A stretch of 64,000 nucleotides of DNA, taken from contig NZ_JAQPCN010000001.1 in assembly GCF_028464225.1 (NCBI RefSeq), forward strand, positions 620,001-684,000, read 5' to 3'. This DNA comes from Zeaxanthinibacter sp. PT1 (GTDB lineage Bacteria; Bacteroidota; Bacteroidia; Flavobacteriales; Flavobacteriaceae). A program made the translations under genes and the position numbers. Under the pieces are notes generated by a model, which worked only from the letters and a program-made list of their open reading frames with translations, was not told where the DNA came from and searched no databases. Shown piece after piece: positions 37,491 to 61,661 of this stretch (position 1 is the stretch's first letter; each line of letters starts with the position of its first letter).

Positions 37491-37511
37491 CGGTTCGCAG
37501 TTCGCAGATTG

Positions 37512-37539
37512 CCCGTACCGAACGGCACATTCGGGCGGG
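37512..37539. repeat. GC-rich palindrome (family A)
   Basis: A variant of the dispersed CCCGCCCG ... CGGGCGGG palindrome (here starting CCCGTACCGAACGG) sits between the SGNH gene and its broken duplicate, flanked by gcagttcgcag words. Other copies are listed at 38478, 42704, 47469, 56190, 56418, 61322, 61518 and 61629. Confidence 0.75.
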
Positions 37540-38445: not shown

Positions 38446-38681
38446 TACTTTTTTGCATTGCCCAAAAAAGTATCCAACCCGCCCGAACGTACCGTTCGGT
38501 ACGGGCGGGAAAACGCTAGGCTGCATTTTCTTTTCTGCATTTCTACGGTCTCGCGGTCTGCGCTGTCCGATACCGGCAAAAATATCTTATACATAGAAAG
38601 GAGTTTCTAACCTTCCCCTCTTCCCGGACAGCTTCCGGGAACCCTCAGGACTTGATTTACTACGGATATAAAATGATGCCG
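38446..38681 (+). repeat. Composite intergenic repeat (family H), copy 1
   Basis: The element starts with a hairpin (TACTTTTTTG ... CAAAAAAGTA), contains palindrome A at 38478-38509, then a block aaaacgctaggctgcatttt. Next is GCTGTCCGATACC, and about 60 bases later TTCCCGGACAGCTT, whose CTGTCCG/CGGACAG words form an inverted pair. It ends near aaaatgatgcc. Similar blocks occur at 39015-39171 and, inverted, at 47250-47534. The overlapping ORFs are low-complexity shadows. No transposase is seen. Confidence 0.7.
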
Positions 38682-39265: not shown

Positions 39266-41056
39266 CTATTTCCGCTTTGCAATAAAAGTTCCATTAGGCT
39301 GGATAACCCTTAGCTGTTTTATGGTGCCGTTATCATCGGAGACGAATTCTGCGAAAAATCCTTCTTCTGCACCGATAGCGAACCTCTCTTGGTCTAATGG
39401 GATAAGGTCGTACTCCCTCTGACCGGGAACAAACATTACCAAACCATCCCCCTTAAGAAATATCCTGACAGCAATACCTGGGAGCTCATACGAGCCTTCG
39501 TAGACTTGTAGGGTAGCTAGTGGAATTTCCACAGTTTCATATTCCCGGGTGAATTCTATAGGCTGGTCCAGGGTCCGCTCCAGTTTCATCTTTACTGAAG
39601 CTATCTCCCCCGTTTCATTCATGGAAAAACTCGTTTTAAATGGGACTATGTTTACGGTATCTGGCTTATTATTTAAGAATGGTATAGGCTGAAATACGTC
39701 ATAATGCTGGGGTTTAAGGTAAGAGGATCCATGAGGAGTTTTAAGGATCAAAGAATCAGATCTGACCGATACCTTTATTCCCCCGTAACCAGGGTGGTGA
39801 AAGGTCCCCGTATAGTCCGCCAGATCATGGGTAGGGCCTGCGATGGTTCCTGCTATTTCTTTCGGTGTTTCCTCCTCTGCTTCATCATCCGCGCCGGAAT
39901 TCTTCAGTATTTTACTTATCCAATCTATTTTATCCAGCTGTAACATGCGGTCTGCAATAAGGTTTCTTACCATCGGTAAGGCCATGGTGCCTGGTCGGTT
40001 AGCCAGTATTACTATTCCTATGCTATCCGTGGGATATAAGGCGACATATGCGTTAAACCCATCTATACCTCCACTATGACCCACCCTGTAATGCCCGCGG
40101 TATGAACTGATTCCCCACCCATATCCATACGTATTATTATGAATATAAGGACTCTCACTACTTGGCATTCCACTTCCGGATACCGCATGGGAACTCATGG
40201 CCTCCGTCACGTAATTCTCAGGGATCAGCTGCTTGCCGCGGTGCTTCCCCTTATTTACCCAGGTCAGCAACCATTGGGTCATCTCTCTTGCGCTACTATT
40301 AATACTGCCTGCCGGGCCCATAGCCGCGATATCATAATAGGGCACAGGGCGAAAAATACTGTCCTGCACCAACTCGTAGCCTACCGCTGTGTTTTCAGAC
40401 TCCTTTAATGCTCCTATGGTCAGGTTGGATCGCGTCATTTCCAAAGGATCAAAGAAACGCTCCTGTATATTCTGCTCCCAACTTTTCCCGGTGATTCGTT
40501 CAGCAATCACCCCCTGGACCAGGTACATAAAATTATTATAATGCCATTTTTGCCGCAGTCCTGTGAAAGGCTCTAAGTATTGAATCCGTTGGATCAGGCT
40601 ATCCTTGCTTTGAGTGGGAAACAAATACCAGGCGAGATCATGTCTCGGAATTCCAGTCTGGTGTGTCATCAGGTCCTTGATGGTGACATTATTGTTCAAT
40701 TCCGAATTGTAGAACCGCAATTCCGGGATATAATCCCTGGGATTATCATCAAAATCAAGTTTGCCTTCCTGTCTCAATAATCCAAGCAACGCCCCGGTAA
40801 ACGCCTTACTGCAGGATCCAATGGCAAAAAGGGTGTTCTGGTCTACCGGAATTTTCTTTTCGACATCCCTGTAGCCATATCCCCCTGAGAGGATGACTTT
40901 ATCCTTTTCTACCACAGCTACACTAAAACCAGGGGTTTTAGTCACCTCCAGAATTTTTTTGAATTCCTTATCCAGGTTCTTGAGTCGAGGATCTGCCTGT
41001 GCGTTTCCATTCTGAAGAAATAAAAATAATCCCAAGCATAGTACAGCTAATTTCAT
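39266..41056 (-). CDS. Secreted serine hydrolase with two C-terminal DUF3471-like domains
   Basis: The 596-residue protein starts with a signal peptide (MKLAVLCLGLFLFLQNGNAQ). Catalytic motifs of the beta-lactamase fold are SCSK, YNN in KWHYNNFMYLVQG, and HSGG in VGHSGGIDGF. From about residue 395 there is an Asp/Glu linker (DDEAEEETPKE), then two DUF3471-like beta-barrels (DYTGTFHHPGYGG and YEGSYELPGIAV), a layout known from D-aminopeptidase or esterase relatives. The substrate is unknown. It is read towards the repeat-rich gap on its left and is not in an operon. Confidence 0.9.
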   Translation of the reverse strand: MKLAVLCLGLFLFLQNGNAQADPRLKNLDKEFKKILEVTKTPGFSVAVVEKDKVILSGGYGYRDVEKKIPVDQNTLFAIGSCSKAFTGALLGLLRQEGKLDFDDNPRDYIPELRFYNSELNNNVTIKDLMTHQTGIPRHDLAWYLFPTQSKDSLIQRIQYLEPFTGLRQKWHYNNFMYLVQGVIAERITGKSWEQNIQERFFDPLEMTRSNLTIGALKESENTAVGYELVQDSIFRPVPYYDIAAMGPAGSINSSAREMTQWLLTWVNKGKHRGKQLIPENYVTEAMSSHAVSGSGMPSSESPYIHNNTYGYGWGISSYRGHYRVGHSGGIDGFNAYVALYPTDSIGIVILANRPGTMALPMVRNLIADRMLQLDKIDWISKILKNSGADDEAEEETPKEIAGTIAGPTHDLADYTGTFHHPGYGGIKVSVRSDSLILKTPHGSSYLKPQHYDVFQPIPFLNNKPDTVNIVPFKTSFSMNETGEIASVKMKLERTLDQPIEFTREYETVEIPLATLQVYEGSYELPGIAVRIFLKGDGLVMFVPGQREYDLIPLDQERFAIGAEEGFFAEFVSDDNGTIKQLRVIQPNGTFIAKRK

Positions 41057-41452: not shown

Positions 41453-42589
41453 CTAATCCTTCTCCTCAAGATACTCCATCACCACCCGGTAAGTATCTTC
41501 GATCAAACTACTCCCGAACAACCGGTCATTATTCATAAAAATCGCAATATCCAACGACCGTTCCCGGTGGTGGATCACGAAGGTGTTTGCACCAAATGCT
41601 CGGCCCCCATGTAAGGCGAGATCACCGGCCACTTCCCAGCCCTTGGCATAATGTGCAGTTGTCCCTGCAAAGAATTTTATATCCGTTTCGGACCCTGGGA
41701 TGGGAATATTGTCTGCCTGGAAGATCAAATCGTGGGTCTCCGGGGAAAAGATTTTCCTATTTCGCAGCGCCTGGGTATAGGCAAAATAGTCGCTGATGCT
41801 GGTGTACATTCCCCCTGCTCCTAATAGACCGTACAGGAAATGTCCATCTACCTTTTGCCACTGCCCAAGGCTGTCCTTTTCATAACAAAAAGCGCGTTTC
41901 TTGATCTCGATGGGCCGTGCCAGGTTAAAGAAATGGGTGCGGTTCATCCCTGCCTTTTTAAAGATGTGCTCCTCGGCAAATGCGGCAAAATCCTGCCCGC
42001 TCACCTTTTCCACGATGGCCGCCAGCAGTTCGTAAGTGCCGTTGTTGTATTGCCACTCGGTTCCGGGTGTTAATGGCGAGGGTGGATTCTTTTCATAATA
42101 GGCCACCACATCCTTATTCTCTGCAATCTTTGTGCTGTCCCACTCGCTGAAAAATGCATCTTCGGCATCCGCCAGCCCGCTGGTGTGATGCACTAATTGC
42201 TCAATGGTCACATTTTTAAAAATCTCAAAGGGATAGATGGAATAGACCGTATCGCTGAGCGAGAGTTTCCCCTGGTCTACCAATGCCAGGACCGCCAGGG
42301 CCGTAAACTGCTTACTGACCGACCCCATCCGCATATTGGTGTTCATATTGATGGGTTCTTTGCGCTCCAGGTCTCGCAAGCCGTAGCCCTTCCCCACCAG
42401 GATTTCCCCGTCATAGGCAACCATCAGCGCCGCCCCCGGTTCGCCCGGCTGAACGACTTGCGCAAAAATTGAATCCAGCCGGATCTCCAAAGCCGCCAGC
42501 AGTTCTTGTTCTTGTACTTGTTTTTTCTTGCTGTCTTGTTGGCAGGATGCGATGACCAGCAGTAGTAGTAGGGATAGTAGTTTTTTCAT
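41453..42589 (-). CDS. Serine hydrolase lipoprotein, duplicate A
   Basis: The 378-residue protein begins MKKLLSLLLLLVIASCQQ, a lipoprotein signal encoded by a simple tri-nucleotide Leu run. Motifs are SVSKQF (SxxK), YNNGTY (YxN) and HGGRAFG. It is a close paralogue of the gene at 45613-46746. The middle of the two is nearly identical, while the last ~100 codons differ strongly (for example HGGRAFGANTFVIHH against HGGDWFGVNTFVIHE). About 90 bases upstream of the start are also shared. Probably a periplasmic esterase or peptidase; the substrate is unknown. Confidence 0.9.
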   Translation of the reverse strand: MKKLLSLLLLLVIASCQQDSKKKQVQEQELLAALEIRLDSIFAQVVQPGEPGAALMVAYDGEILVGKGYGLRDLERKEPINMNTNMRMGSVSKQFTALAVLALVDQGKLSLSDTVYSIYPFEIFKNVTIEQLVHHTSGLADAEDAFFSEWDSTKIAENKDVVAYYEKNPPSPLTPGTEWQYNNGTYELLAAIVEKVSGQDFAAFAEEHIFKKAGMNRTHFFNLARPIEIKKRAFCYEKDSLGQWQKVDGHFLYGLLGAGGMYTSISDYFAYTQALRNRKIFSPETHDLIFQADNIPIPGSETDIKFFAGTTAHYAKGWEVAGDLALHGGRAFGANTFVIHHRERSLDIAIFMNNDRLFGSSLIEDTYRVVMEYLEEKD

Positions 42590-42651
42590 CGGTTTGTTAT
42601 TAGAGGGGGAGGGATGTATTAAAGATATTGAATTTTGGTTTGCGGTTTGCG

Positions 42652-42671
42652 CCTGCCTGCCGGCAGGCAGG
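42652..42671. repeat. Perfect 20-bp palindrome (family B)
   Basis: CCTGCCTGCC is followed directly by its reverse complement GGCAGGCAGG. It lies in a segment (42651-42676) that is absent from the homologous leader at 46800. Related sequences are seen at 45571-45596 and 61621-61658. Confidence 0.8.
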
Positions 42672-42703
42672 GTTGGCGGTTTGCAGTTTGGGCCCTTCGA
42701 CTA

Positions 42704-42735
42704 CCCGCCCGAATGTGCCGTTCGGTACGGGCGGG
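42704..42735. repeat. GC-rich palindrome (family A) inside a target found empty at 46835
   Basis: CCCGCCCG ... CGGGCGGG with an inner CCGTTCGG core interrupts the sequence cccttcgactac/gctcagggc. In the duplicated leader at 46822-46845 the same target is uninterrupted, so 42705-42736 is a 32-base presence/absence difference. Confidence 0.85.
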
Positions 42736-43378
42736 CGCTCAGGGCAGGGTTTGGGGTTTGCAGTTCGGGGGTTTGGAGTTTGGGGTTCGGGGTTTCTGGT
42801 CTAAAATTTACTGACAAAAAATAACAGCTTCAGAAATAAAAGAGAGGCACGTATTGGCAAAACACCTCTGCATCCCAGATAGCTTCGGGGGCCGGAATTG
42901 CGACGAAAAGAACATGATGCCATTGTGAAATCGTTAAGCTAGGGAATGCCTTTTCTTCAGTATAGGCTAAGCAAACTTGGAATGCTACTCGAAAATGACT
43001 AAGCCATTTTTGGCCAAGTTTGTGTGCCGGTTTTGCGCAGCAAAAATACATATAGAAATCGAAGATTCACGAGCTCCTATGAAATTGAACATGTGCGAGT
43101 AAAAGGCAAGGAAGGCCCTTCCTTTGCTTCGTTTCTTTGGGCCAGACTCATACCATGCATCGCAGCTTGGCTGAAATGCAATTCAATGAAAAAACGATTA
43201 ATAGTGTTTCTTGGTTACATCGAATTCTGATTAATTCGCTTCTTATCCGGCAAGGTAGGCGTAGAACTACGGGGAAACCTATCCCGAAACCTTGGTGAGG
43301 GCAACAGCTCATCGTTAGAAAATTTGGTTTTACTGAGAAAAAATTCGTTATTGTTGTTCTAACCGACCAAACCTTACC

Positions 43379-45612: not shown

Positions 45613-46746
45613 CTATTCCTCCTCAAGATACTCCTGAACCAGCTCGTAGGTATTCCCGATAAGGCTACTGTTGAATAACCTATCATTATTCATAAAAATC
45701 GCAATATCCAAAGGTCGTTCTAGCTCGTGGATCACGAAGGTGTTTACGCCAAACCAATCGCCGCCATGGACCGCGATGTTCCCGGCAATCTCCCAGCCTT
45801 TGGCGTAATACGCAGTCTTGCCTTCCAAGAACTTGATGTCTGTTTGGTCTGTGGGAATAGGAAGGCTGTCGAGCTGGAAGATCAGGGCATGCGTTCCCGG
45901 CGAAAAAATGCGCTTCTCCCGCAGTGCCTGGGTGTAGGAAAAATAATCCTGCACACTGGTATACATCCCCCCTGCCCCGAGCAGGCCATTCAGAAAATGC
46001 CCGTCCACTTTTTGCCACTGCCCAAGGCTGTCCTTTTCATAACAAAAAGCGCGTTTCTTGATCTCGATAGGCCGCGCCAGGTTAAAGAAATGGGTGCGGT
46101 TCATCCCCGCCTTTTCGAAAACGTGCTCCTCGGCAAATGCCGCAAAATCCTGCCCGCTCACCTTTTCCACGATGGCCGCCAGCAGTTCGTAAGTGCCGTT
46201 GTTGTATTGCCACTCGGTTCCGGGTGTTAATGGCGAGGGTGGATTCTTTTCATAGTAGGCCACCACATCCTTGTTCTCTGCAATCTTTGTGCTGTCCCAC
46301 TCGCTGAAAAATGCTTCTTCGGCATCCGCCAGCCCGCTGGTGTGATACACTAATTGTTCAATGGTCACATTTTTAAAAATCTCGAAGGGATAGATGGAAT
46401 AGACCGTATCGCTGAGCGAGAGTTTCCCCTGGTCTACCAGGGCAAGCACGGCCAGGGCGGTGAACTGCTTACTCACCGATCCCATCCGCATATTGGTGTT
46501 CATAGTGATAGGTTCTTCGGTCTCCAGGTTCCGTAGCCCGTAACCCTTTCCGAGCAGCAGTTCCCCGTCATAGGCAACCATCAGCGCCGCCCCGGGTTCC
46601 CCCGGTTGGATGACCGTTCCAAACAGCGAATCCAGCCGGATCTCCAGGGCCGCCAACCGTTCTTGTTCTTGTACTTGTTTTTTCTTGTTGTCTTGTTGGC
46701 AGGATGCGATGACCAGCAGTAGTAGTAGGGGTAGTAGTTTTTTCAT
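45613..46746 (-). CDS. Serine hydrolase lipoprotein, duplicate B
   Basis: The 377-residue protein is the paralogue of the gene at 41453-42589, with the same signal (MKKLLPLLLLLVIASCQQ), SVSKQF, YNNGTY and HGGDWFG motifs. From about residue 95 to 255 the two proteins are almost identical and their DNA differs by only a few bases. Outside this block, and above all after residue 270, they diverge. This suggests a tandem duplication later homogenised in the middle by gene conversion. Both copies retain the catalytic residues. Confidence 0.9.
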   Translation of the reverse strand: MKKLLPLLLLLVIASCQQDNKKKQVQEQERLAALEIRLDSLFGTVIQPGEPGAALMVAYDGELLLGKGYGLRNLETEEPITMNTNMRMGSVSKQFTALAVLALVDQGKLSLSDTVYSIYPFEIFKNVTIEQLVYHTSGLADAEEAFFSEWDSTKIAENKDVVAYYEKNPPSPLTPGTEWQYNNGTYELLAAIVEKVSGQDFAAFAEEHVFEKAGMNRTHFFNLARPIEIKKRAFCYEKDSLGQWQKVDGHFLNGLLGAGGMYTSVQDYFSYTQALREKRIFSPGTHALIFQLDSLPIPTDQTDIKFLEGKTAYYAKGWEIAGNIAVHGGDWFGVNTFVIHELERPLDIAIFMNNDRLFNSSLIGNTYELVQEYLEEE

Positions 46747-46919
46747 CGGTTTGGTTTTAGAGGGGGGAGGGATGTATTAAAGATATTGAATTTTGGTTTG
46801 CGGTTTGCGGTTTGCAGTTTGGGCCCTTCGACTACGCTCAGGGCAGGGTTTGGGGTTTGGGGTCTATAATGAAGTGTTAGTTCGAGTCTTTCGTCTACAC
46901 CTTGGCTGTAACTCTATTC

Positions 46920-47041
46920 TGTCAGTTCGAGCGGAGTCGAGAACTGTTTCAAGACCATTCTAATTTACGCTGAACAATTTCAGGCGAGAACTCATCTGAA
47001 ATCGGCCTTTGGAATCACCTCTCGACTCCACTCGAGGTGAC
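46920..47041. repeat. Inverted-repeat-flanked element (family F), long form
   Basis: GTCAGTTCGAGCGGAGTCGA at the left and TCTCGACTCCACTCGAGGTG near the right are inverted arms of about 20 bases around a ~75-base unique core. A short form with the same arms lies at 61216-61286. It looks MITE-like, with no coding capacity. Confidence 0.65.
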
Positions 47042-47249: not shown

Positions 47250-47534
47250 GCATCATTTTCTATCCGTAGCAAATCAAGTCCTGAGGGTTCTAAAAAGCTG
47301 TCCGGGAAGAGAGAAGGGATAATTGCTGATATTAAGTGGTAGCTATTGTTACAGGTATCGGACAGCGCTGAACCCGAAGGCATAGATTTCAAAGATGAAA
47401 TGCTTTGCATTCACGAATACCTCAGACTAAATAGAAGTGCCATGAGTAAAAATGCAGCCTAGCGTTTTCCCGCCCGTACCGAACGGCACGTTCGGGCGGG
47501 TTGGATACTTTTTTGATCAATGCAAAAAAGTATC
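47250..47534 (-). repeat. Composite intergenic repeat (family H), copy 3, inverted
   Basis: Read on the minus strand it gives the same order as copy 1: hairpin TACTTTTTTGCATTGATCAA..., palindrome A, ggaaaacgctaggctgcatt, a longer diverged middle, GCTGTCCGATACCTG, then CCCGGACAGCTTTTTAGA and aaaatgatgcc. The middle contains about 100 bases not seen in copies 1 and 2. Confidence 0.65.
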
Positions 47535-49335: not shown

Positions 49336-49698
49336 TCACCTCAGCTTTTGTATCACTTGTTCAATGCTCAACAATACACTGAACATTTCTTGCTTTATCT
49401 CTTGGTTACTAAAACGGATGATTTGAATGCCATAATTTGAAAGTCGTTTGGTTCGTTTCGAATCGTATTCGAAAGTCTGATCATGAATACTCCCATCAAT
49501 CTCTATGACCAGCCTGATTTCATGGCAATAGAAATCAACAATATAATCCAATAGTGGAACTTGCCTATGGAATTCTACACCTAGTGCTTTCTTCTTGAGA
49601 TGTTTCCACAATATAATTTCAGGAATAGTACTGTTCTTTCGTAGTTCTCTTGCATATCTTTTCAAGATCGGATTATATGGAATCAGCTTATTTTTCAT
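49336..49698 (-). CDS. DUF559 family (Vsr-like) endonuclease-like protein
   Basis: The 120-residue protein is a typical DUF559: MKNKLIPYNPILKRYARELR, TIPEIILWKHLKKKALG, FHRQVPLLDYIVDFYCHEIR, LVIEIDGSIHD and a final GIQIIRFSNQEI. The Asp in DYIVDFYC and the Glu in VIEIDG are the expected PD-(D/E)xK-like metal ligands, related to very-short-patch-repair nucleases. It is a single complete gene surrounded by palindromic repeats, which suggests that nuclease and repeats move or spread together. Substrate is not known. Confidence 0.88.
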   Translation of the reverse strand: MKNKLIPYNPILKRYARELRKNSTIPEIILWKHLKKKALGVEFHRQVPLLDYIVDFYCHEIRLVIEIDGSIHDQTFEYDSKRTKRLSNYGIQIIRFSNQEIKQEMFSVLLSIEQVIQKLR

Positions 49699-56052: not shown

Positions 56053-56670
56053 CCCTCCGTCTCCCGGTACCCGGGAGACACCCCCCTTTAACTAAAGGGA
56101 GGAGCTGCATTCCTAATCACCTTACAGAGTAGTTCCCTCTCCGTCTCCGACGAGTGAACGTAGAGAACGAGAGGAAGACGCAGGGCTGGCCCGCCCGTAC
56201 CGAACGGCACGTTCGGGCGGGGGTGAGGGCCGGGCCCTAAAGGGCCGTTTGAGGTTTGATGTTTGGGGTTCGATACTCGTGGGTAATTATAACCCTTTCT
56301 GTCCCTCGCCTGCAAGGCGGCCAAATAAACCCTCCGTCTCCCACTCCCCGGGAGACACCTCCATTTAAATAAAGGGAGGAGCTGCGAGCAAGTAGACCTC
56401 GAACCTTGCCCTGAGCGCCCGCCCGCCTGAATGGACCCAGTCCGGGCAGGAACGTACCGTCCGGTACGGGCGGGAAGTCGAAGGGCTCGAACATCGAACC
56501 TCGAACTTGTACAACATCCCCCTCGCTACTACTCATTGTATTCGTAGTAGCTCTTCTCCCCTTGGAAGGGGGTATCCCCATCCTCAAATAGCGACCCCGC
56601 CCAAGCCTTGCGGCTTATTCGGGCAGGCCGCCAACCCGCCCGCTCGAACCTCGAACTTCGAACTTTAAAG
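56053..56670. repeat. Mosaic of intergenic repeats
   Basis: In order: family C (56053-56108; CTCCCGGTACCCGGGAG hairpin then CCCTTTAACTAAAGGG), family E (56137-56188; gtctccgacga ... gaggaagacgcagggct), palindrome A (56190-56221), gtttgaggtttgatgtttgg words, family C again (56329-56385), a composite palindrome A in the ccctgagcg/agtcgaaggg target (56409-56487), tcgaac words, the ttcgtagtagctct/ccttggaaggggg block (56515-56580) and a diverged palindrome (56596-56640). No gene is supported here. Confidence 0.65.
56190..56221. repeat. GC-rich palindrome (family A), stand-alone
   Basis: CCCGCCCGTACCGAACGG and its partner GGGCGGG arm follow directly after a family E block. The same E-then-A order is found at 61488-61549, so the two travel together. 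Confidence 0.75.
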
Positions 56671-61161: not shown

Positions 61162-61661
61162 GTGAGATGTTAGGTCGAGCCCTTGGGCTACATCTAGGCT
61201 GTAGCTTTATTCTGTCAGTTCGAGCGGAGTCGAGAACTTGTCATGTGAGTCTATTAAATGGGTCTCGACTCCGCTCGACCTGACAGCTGATAACATCGAA
61301 CTTCGAACCATGCCCTGAGCGCCCGCCCGAACGTACCGTCGGTACGGGCGGGAAATCGAAGGGCTCGAACCTCGAACTCCTTCACCCTCCGTCTCCCGCT
61401 CCCCGGGAGACACCCCCCTTTAACTAAAGGGAGGTGCTGCTAGCAAAATTCAAAATAATGTTTTCCTCTCTCCCCTTCCGTCTCCGACGACAGAACGAGA
61501 GGAAGACGCAGGGCTAGCCCGCCCGAACGTGCCGTACGGTACGGGCGGGGGTGTGGGATTTCGAACCTCGAATTTACCTACCGAAGGTAGGCCTCAAACC
61601 TCGAACCTCGAACCTCGAACCCTGCCTGCCCGCCCGTGCCGGTCGGACGGGCCGGCAGCCC
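61162..61661. repeat. Mosaic of intergenic repeats before murQ
   Basis: In order: the short TIR element F (61216-61286), tcgaacttcgaac words, the ccctgagcg/atcgaaggg target with palindrome A (61312-61363), tcgaacct words, family C (61384-61440), family E (61488-61516), palindrome A (61518-61549), more tcgaacct words (61560-61620), and a B/A-like palindrome (61621-61658) directly against the murQ stop. The order C, E, A matches that of 56053-56221. Confidence 0.65.
61216..61286. repeat. Inverted-repeat element (family F), short form
   Basis: GTCAGTTCGAGCGGAGTCGA and TCGACTCCGCTCGACCTGAC are near-perfect inverted arms around a ~25-base core. It is the short form of the element at 46920-47041, with no coding capacity. 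Confidence 0.7.

Follow-up and report, generated by a model that had tools for sequence, protein, structure and literature searches.

Two short GC-rich palindromes, A (32 bp) and B (20 bp), are present in the leader of one of two duplicated serine hydrolase genes of Zeaxanthinibacter sp. PT1 and missing from the leader of the other. Such palindromes form discrete, dispersed units that occupy fixed points, occur nested and mark loci that are filled in one species and empty in another, and A leaves no target duplication. Unit insertion is supported by the occurrence of A in unrelated hosts, by the presence of several palindromes at one and the same point and by the orthologous filled and empty sites. 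We consider it very likely for these palindromes in general, with the proviso that no insertion was observed directly and that strain-level polymorphism data are lacking. For this particular leader we lean towards direct insertion without great confidence; that it was insertion rather than excision is inferred.

A filled and an empty leader

The analysed stretch of DNA, here called the window, comprises 64,000 bp (G000:C1:620001-684000) of the 3.34-Mb genome of Zeaxanthinibacter sp. PT1 (G000). Comparisons within the genus were made with three congeners, G001, G002 and G003, the last of which we take to be Zeaxanthinibacter enoshimensis DSM 18435. Between window positions 39266 and 46746 three serine hydrolase genes (PF00144) lie on the minus strand; those at 41453 and 45613 are recent duplicates, and a plus-strand ORF of 714 aa separates the last two. 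The duplicated pair has the following features.

41453..42589, minus strand: serine hydrolase (beta-lactamase family, Pfam PF00144) with the filled leader
45613..46746, minus strand: duplicate serine hydrolase (Pfam PF00144) with the empty leader
42652..42671, no strand: palindrome B, CCTGCCTGCCGGCAGGCAGG, 20 bp, perfect; missing from the 46.8-kb leader
42672..42678, plus strand: degenerate heptamer GTTGGCG next to B; array unit or imperfect 7-bp duplication
42693..42703, plus strand: CCCTTCGACTA, left half of the filled copy of host repeat C
42704..42735, no strand: palindrome A, 32 bp, within host repeat C; missing from the 46.8-kb leader
42736..42744, plus strand: CGCTCAGGG, right half of the filled copy of host repeat C
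46824..46843, plus strand: host repeat C of the paralogous leader, empty, CCCTTCGACTACGCTCAGGG; C is also empty at C1:165931 and C1:1309256

With 92% identity over 652 bp the two leaders are homologous, and the alignment places the indels as two segments that are extra in the 42.6-kb leader relative to the 46.8-kb leader. When positions 42652-42678 and 42704-42735 are deleted from the former, the latter is obtained letter for letter over 66 bp. The initial annotation, made from the sequence alone, had described two extra segments in homologous leaders, and this held; lack of homology between the leaders, which it had named as part of its refuting condition, was not borne out. Its length of 26 bases for the first segment had to be corrected to 27 bp, i.e. 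the 20-bp palindrome B plus one GTTGGCG unit of the surrounding GTTTGCG heptamer array; the 32 bases given for the second segment, with palindrome A, proved exact. It had also seen no clear target duplication. This holds for A, whose junction between CCCTTCGACTA and CGCTCAGGG is ambiguous by a single C; for B, the extra heptamer may possibly reflect slippage of the array or an imperfect 7-bp duplication.

The A pattern (at most three mismatches) occurs six times in the window and not once in 100 dinucleotide shuffles; the B pattern occurs once, again against none in 100 shuffles. Both palindromes fold, and both meet the REP-like size range of about 20-50 nt. The intergenic region beside the leader measures 886 bp, whereas the orthologous region of Z. 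enoshimensis measures only 209 bp and contains none of these repeats. It was not possible to locate the leader in G002 or in G001, the assembly of which is 68% complete.

Copies and hosts of palindrome A

At up to three mismatches, A is present in 18 copies in G000, 21 in Z. enoshimensis and eight in G001, and the same pattern search yielded no copy in G002. Near-identical 32-mers, often identical to the letter, were found in 26 of 397 genomes of the Flavobacteriaceae, against zero matches for the reversed pattern in the same 397. All repeat censuses rest on pattern searches and extracted stretches. Besides the copy in the leader, the window contains the following copies.

37508..37539, minus strand: A copy, one end degenerate
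38478..38509, plus strand: A copy in the GTATCCAA/AAAACGCTAGGCTGC repeat
47469..47500, minus strand: A copy, repeat type as at 38478
56190..56221, minus strand: A copy
61322..61352, plus strand: A minus one base, within host repeat C
61518..61549, plus strand: A copy

A DUF559 (PF04480) nuclease-like ORF lies at 49336-49698, about 1.8 kb from the copy at 47469. No known RNA family (Rfam) was found between 37 and 62 kb of the window.

The hosts in which A sits seamlessly are unrelated to each other and comprise arrays of 8-mers, a second palindrome and copies of tRNA genes. In G000 alone at least four such contexts can be distinguished, namely the GGGTTACA- and GGGACAAA-type arrays, the GTATCCAA/AAAACGCT repeat and palindrome C; in Z. 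enoshimensis most copies occupy one phase of TGATGCGG-type arrays, and in many genera A is located within tRNA-gene copies. Intergenic arrays of 7-8 bp (L003, L004, L012 and L014 in G000; L044-L055 in Z. enoshimensis) carry the same palindrome at a fixed phase, and the array unit differs between species of the genus (GGGTTACA/GGGACAAA in G000 versus TGATGCGG in Z. enoshimensis).

None of the 81 distinct copies of A is flanked by a target duplication of 3-6 bp, so that the criterion for a MITE is not met; the flank matches of 7-8 bp correspond to tandem arrays of that period. The tetranucleotide GTAG is found in its canonical place directly 5' of the palindrome at a single one of these 81 copies. 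The flanking triplets are mixed, and the idea of one short tag preceding every insertion was dropped. Carriage by phages or plasmids was likewise rejected, as A was not found among 50,697 phage and 72,556 plasmid records, and a search of IMG/VR limited to the exact pattern gave no match.

One insertion point shared by several palindromes

The host repeats C (CCCTTCGACTA/CGCTCAGGG) and E (TTCTCGACTC/CGCTCGAA) have the core GAGCG/NAGTCGA in common, in which the slash marks the insertion point. In G000 this point is empty at window positions 46824, 46929, 61222 and 61265 and at C1:165931 and C1:1309256. Where it is filled, the filling is A, B, the 29-bp palindrome D, or A with the 25-bp palindrome F inside. 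In addition to the copies of C listed above, the window holds:

46929..46940, plus strand: empty host repeat E, GAGCGGAGTCGA, with the target core as in C
61222..61233, plus strand: empty host repeat E
61265..61276, minus strand: empty host repeat E
56418..56474, plus strand: A within host repeat C, interrupted by the 25-bp palindrome F (56426-56450), a three-level nest

The internal insertion point of the F type recurs in a related palindrome of Z. enoshimensis (L185), and the second genomic copy of B (C1:597559) lies within a GAGCG/GAGTCGA repeat. A gapped-pattern search of 22 chosen genomes returned 28 matches in nine genomes, whereas the reversed pattern gave two; almost every match is a point occupied by a palindrome specific to its genus, other genera included.

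The outer arms of the host repeats vary from locus to locus but are still complementary (mean 4.2 and 3.6 bp, versus 1.3 and 1.1 bp when shuffled). Variable and yet complementary arms make a hairpin function or hairpin origin of some kind likely for C and E. Some 18 of 27 empty host repeats combine complementary arms with GTCA four bases upstream; CGTC-tagged REPs, with which these repeats were compared only in general and not family by family, are defined by a CGTC, TGTC or CCTC tag, an AT-first stem and a short loop. At window 61613-61650 a B-type palindrome is apparently split close to the middle by a further palindrome (CCTGCCTG(CCCGCCCGTGCCGGTCGGACGGGC)CGGCAG, the insert in brackets).

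Palindromes and GIY-YIG genes at tRNA-gene copies

In the relatives, tRNA genes often have a truncated 5' copy that holds A precisely behind nucleotide (nt) 21/22, with the intact copy adjoining. Other palindromes in tRNA copies occupy either this place or one at nt 10, and B occurs in tRNA-Leu gene copies of G001. By a strict test, A or another GC hairpin is located at the break in 13 of 19 tRNA 5' copies, versus 2.2% of random positions, and several of the six misses still show a palindrome by eye. The sample is biased upwards, because most loci were fetched on the ground that they or their genomes hold A.

Filled and empty alleles can be compared at two tRNA genes. In G003 and G001 the tRNA-Ala gene contains, after nt 22, palindrome A, GAGCGC, a GIY-YIG gene (PF01541, E 2.8e-16) and a copy of nt 1-22, followed by the remaining tRNA. 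The insert measures 314 bp, its first bases are exactly A, and its copy of nt 1-22 was seen whole in G003. In G000 the upstream flank is that of the filled G003 and G001 loci, with the intact tRNA only; G002 also has only an intact tRNA-Ala. At tRNA-Gly, an A-bearing insert of about 120 bp is present at both loci of G001, G000 and G003 are empty, and the inserts contain no GIY-YIG gene. As the tRNA inserts may also be read as a duplication of 21-28 bp with A inside one of the copies, A need not be the terminus of an element.

A small GIY-YIG gene is present at many of the tRNA-copy sites. On a tree based on a short alignment (74 columns) the tRNA-linked GIY-YIG proteins separate from the free-standing ones with two changes, whereas shuffling gave a mean of 15.6 and none of 500 shuffles reached so low a value; the tRNA isotypes cluster. 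Most A copies of the genus are distant from GIY-YIG genes, and none adjoins the window site, which suggests that these genes may be tied to the class of target and not to mobility. Tandem GIY-YIG units adjoin tRNA-Asn in G000 (L122, C1:518500-524000) and in Z. enoshimensis (L126); in the tRNA-Asn copies of these loci part of the anticodon arm is replaced by TCCCGCAGCTGCGGGA or TCCCGCACCTGCGGGA. Three tandem units lie at tRNA-Arg in G161 (L141, C1:1003800-1008000), and each 5' copy there has one palindrome after nt 10 and another after nt 22.

Alternative explanations

The alternative that survives best is gene conversion or recombination between dispersed repeats, in which the C repeat of the leader would have been overwritten by an A-bearing copy of C and A itself would not have been inserted there. 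In its favour, other C copies with A lie in similar heptamer-array contexts (C1:1311713 and C1:606573, and also window 56418 and 61322), and the leader around C matches C1:1311689-1311775 for 90%. However, the tract must end inside about 50 bp, because the flanks beyond C equal the empty paralogue exactly, and the AATG variant of the leader's A was not seen in the other A-bearing C copies. Conversion also leaves unexplained how A first entered C, the arrays and the tRNA copies, and why B, D and A are found at one point. We judge it unlikely, although it remains possible for the leader.

A second possibility is that A and B are REPs, moved in single-stranded form by a TnpA-REP (Y1 HUH) transposase. 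The size, the hairpin form and the missing target duplication would fit, and Y1_Tnp matches were obtained in nine of 22 genomes tested, some of them carriers of A. The check for a REP-type tyrosine transposase suggested in the initial annotation nevertheless failed: no Y1_Tnp (PF01797) was detected in G000, G001, G002 or G003, which include two A-bearing congeners, in a search that was positive in E. coli and others. Moreover, the GTAG tag is in place at only one of the 81 A copies, and copy numbers are around 20 (18 and 21), not hundreds. The explanation is very unlikely, and with no Y1_Tnp in the four genomes and the tag missing it was rejected for the genus.

Precise excision, whereby both leaders were once filled and the 46.8-kb copy lost its palindromes, cannot be dismissed on the pair itself, as a single pair in one genome gives no direction. 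Yet there is no flanking direct repeat at A to guide a precise loss, C is empty at two other loci too, and the orthologous intergenic region of Z. enoshimensis is free of the repeats (209 bp versus 886 bp), all of which makes excision very improbable. The earlier claim of insertion or excision in whole units is in this respect supported, with insertion the better backed of the two.

Finally, hairpins that are fixed in place and serve structure or regulation (as terminators or RNA elements), in leaders that differ by ordinary indels, would agree with the location in leaders and between genes and with the variable but complementary outer arms. They are all but ruled out by identical 32-mers across unrelated hosts and genera, by the exact insertion points, by the absence of an Rfam family and by the tRNA loci that are filled in one species and empty in another, which speak against a purely fixed element.

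Comparison with known systems

The GTAG- and CGTC-tagged REP elements and their RAYT/TnpA-REP transposases offer a parallel in that REPs are palindromes of 20-50 nt, dispersed and mostly intergenic. From A. variabilis, T. roseum and H. neapolitanus, REPs have been described that lie within another palindrome (PMC3733652), and host repeat E, often with GTCA upstream followed by arms and a loop, may by inference resemble a CGTC-type REP. A and B differ in lacking the GTAG tag, in residing in a genus without Y1 transposase, in their low copy number, in the use of one point by several palindromes and in their D-arm sites in tRNA copies. GTAG-tagged REPs usually exceed 100 copies per genome.

Mitochondrial GC clusters, double-hairpin and repetitive hairpin-forming elements are likewise short, GC-rich, non-coding mobile hairpins that merge and shuffle, and endonucleases have been proposed as their helpers (PMC4478555; PMC2800124). 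In contrast to these, A and B are located on a bacterial chromosome, and GC42 has a putative AG target duplication whereas A has none of 3-6 bp.

The filled tRNA-Ala allele with a nuclease gene, with an empty allele in relatives, is reminiscent of GIY-YIG homing endonucleases and tRNA-targeted integrative elements, as is the carried 5' copy that leaves the tRNA gene intact; truncated tRNA copies are a usual scar of mobile elements (PMC9897764). The tRNA inserts described here are, however, only about 120-314 bp and lack an integrase, the truncated copy carries a GC palindrome at one constant place in its D-arm, and cleavage or homing has not been shown. The Rickettsia palindromic elements (RPEs) also are palindromic units at many loci, but lie in frame within ORFs (PMC3733652), whereas A is found in leaders, repeats and tRNA copies and its 32 bp are not a multiple of three. 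One possible in-frame case is an A-like unit in G016 (L022, C21:177398), near the start of a gene that reads as paaA-like.

A possible mechanism and its meaning

In the reading we prefer, A and B would be short mobile GC-rich palindromes that enter DNA whole, without target duplication, at preferred points. Such points would be of three kinds: the middle of the widespread hairpin repeat GAGCG/NAGTCGA (C and E), one constant phase within tandem arrays of 8-mers and, in tRNA-gene copies, the D-arm, where entry would follow nt 21/22 or sometimes nt 10. Within the window, one duplicated leader would have received A in its C repeat and B in the adjoining heptamer array. The mover, which we infer not to be encoded by the palindromes, would have to act in trans. 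The best candidate would be the clade of small GIY-YIG nucleases adjoining tRNA genes, which may cleave the target, after which repair would copy in a palindrome-bearing donor. A GIY-YIG nuclease as the driver is no more than possible: it is inferred from an association at tRNA sites only, and cleavage, homing and the repair step are not shown. The full statement, i.e. unit insertion at preferred points by a GIY-YIG mover through cutting and repair copying, could as well prove wrong as right.

The literature searched, coverage of which was incomplete, contained no account of these palindromes, their D-arm sites or their tie to GIY-YIG genes. How bare palindromes move is unsolved for most bacterial repeats outside REP/RAYT, and the mover of the mitochondrial GC clusters is likewise unidentified. 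Here, exact target points are available together with filled and empty alleles in related species, one of them a cultivated type strain. With the shared point and a candidate enzyme clade beside the tRNA-copy sites, these make the question directly testable.

A bolder reading, offered as a possibility, is that a family of small GIY-YIG nucleases, with tRNA D-arms and hairpin repeats as their targets, spreads coding-free GC palindromes in the Flavobacteriaceae. Each palindrome would then seal the cut site against re-cutting, and the carried 5' copy would keep the tRNAs intact. If true, bacterial mobile DNA would include a class whose transposing unit is a bare hairpin.
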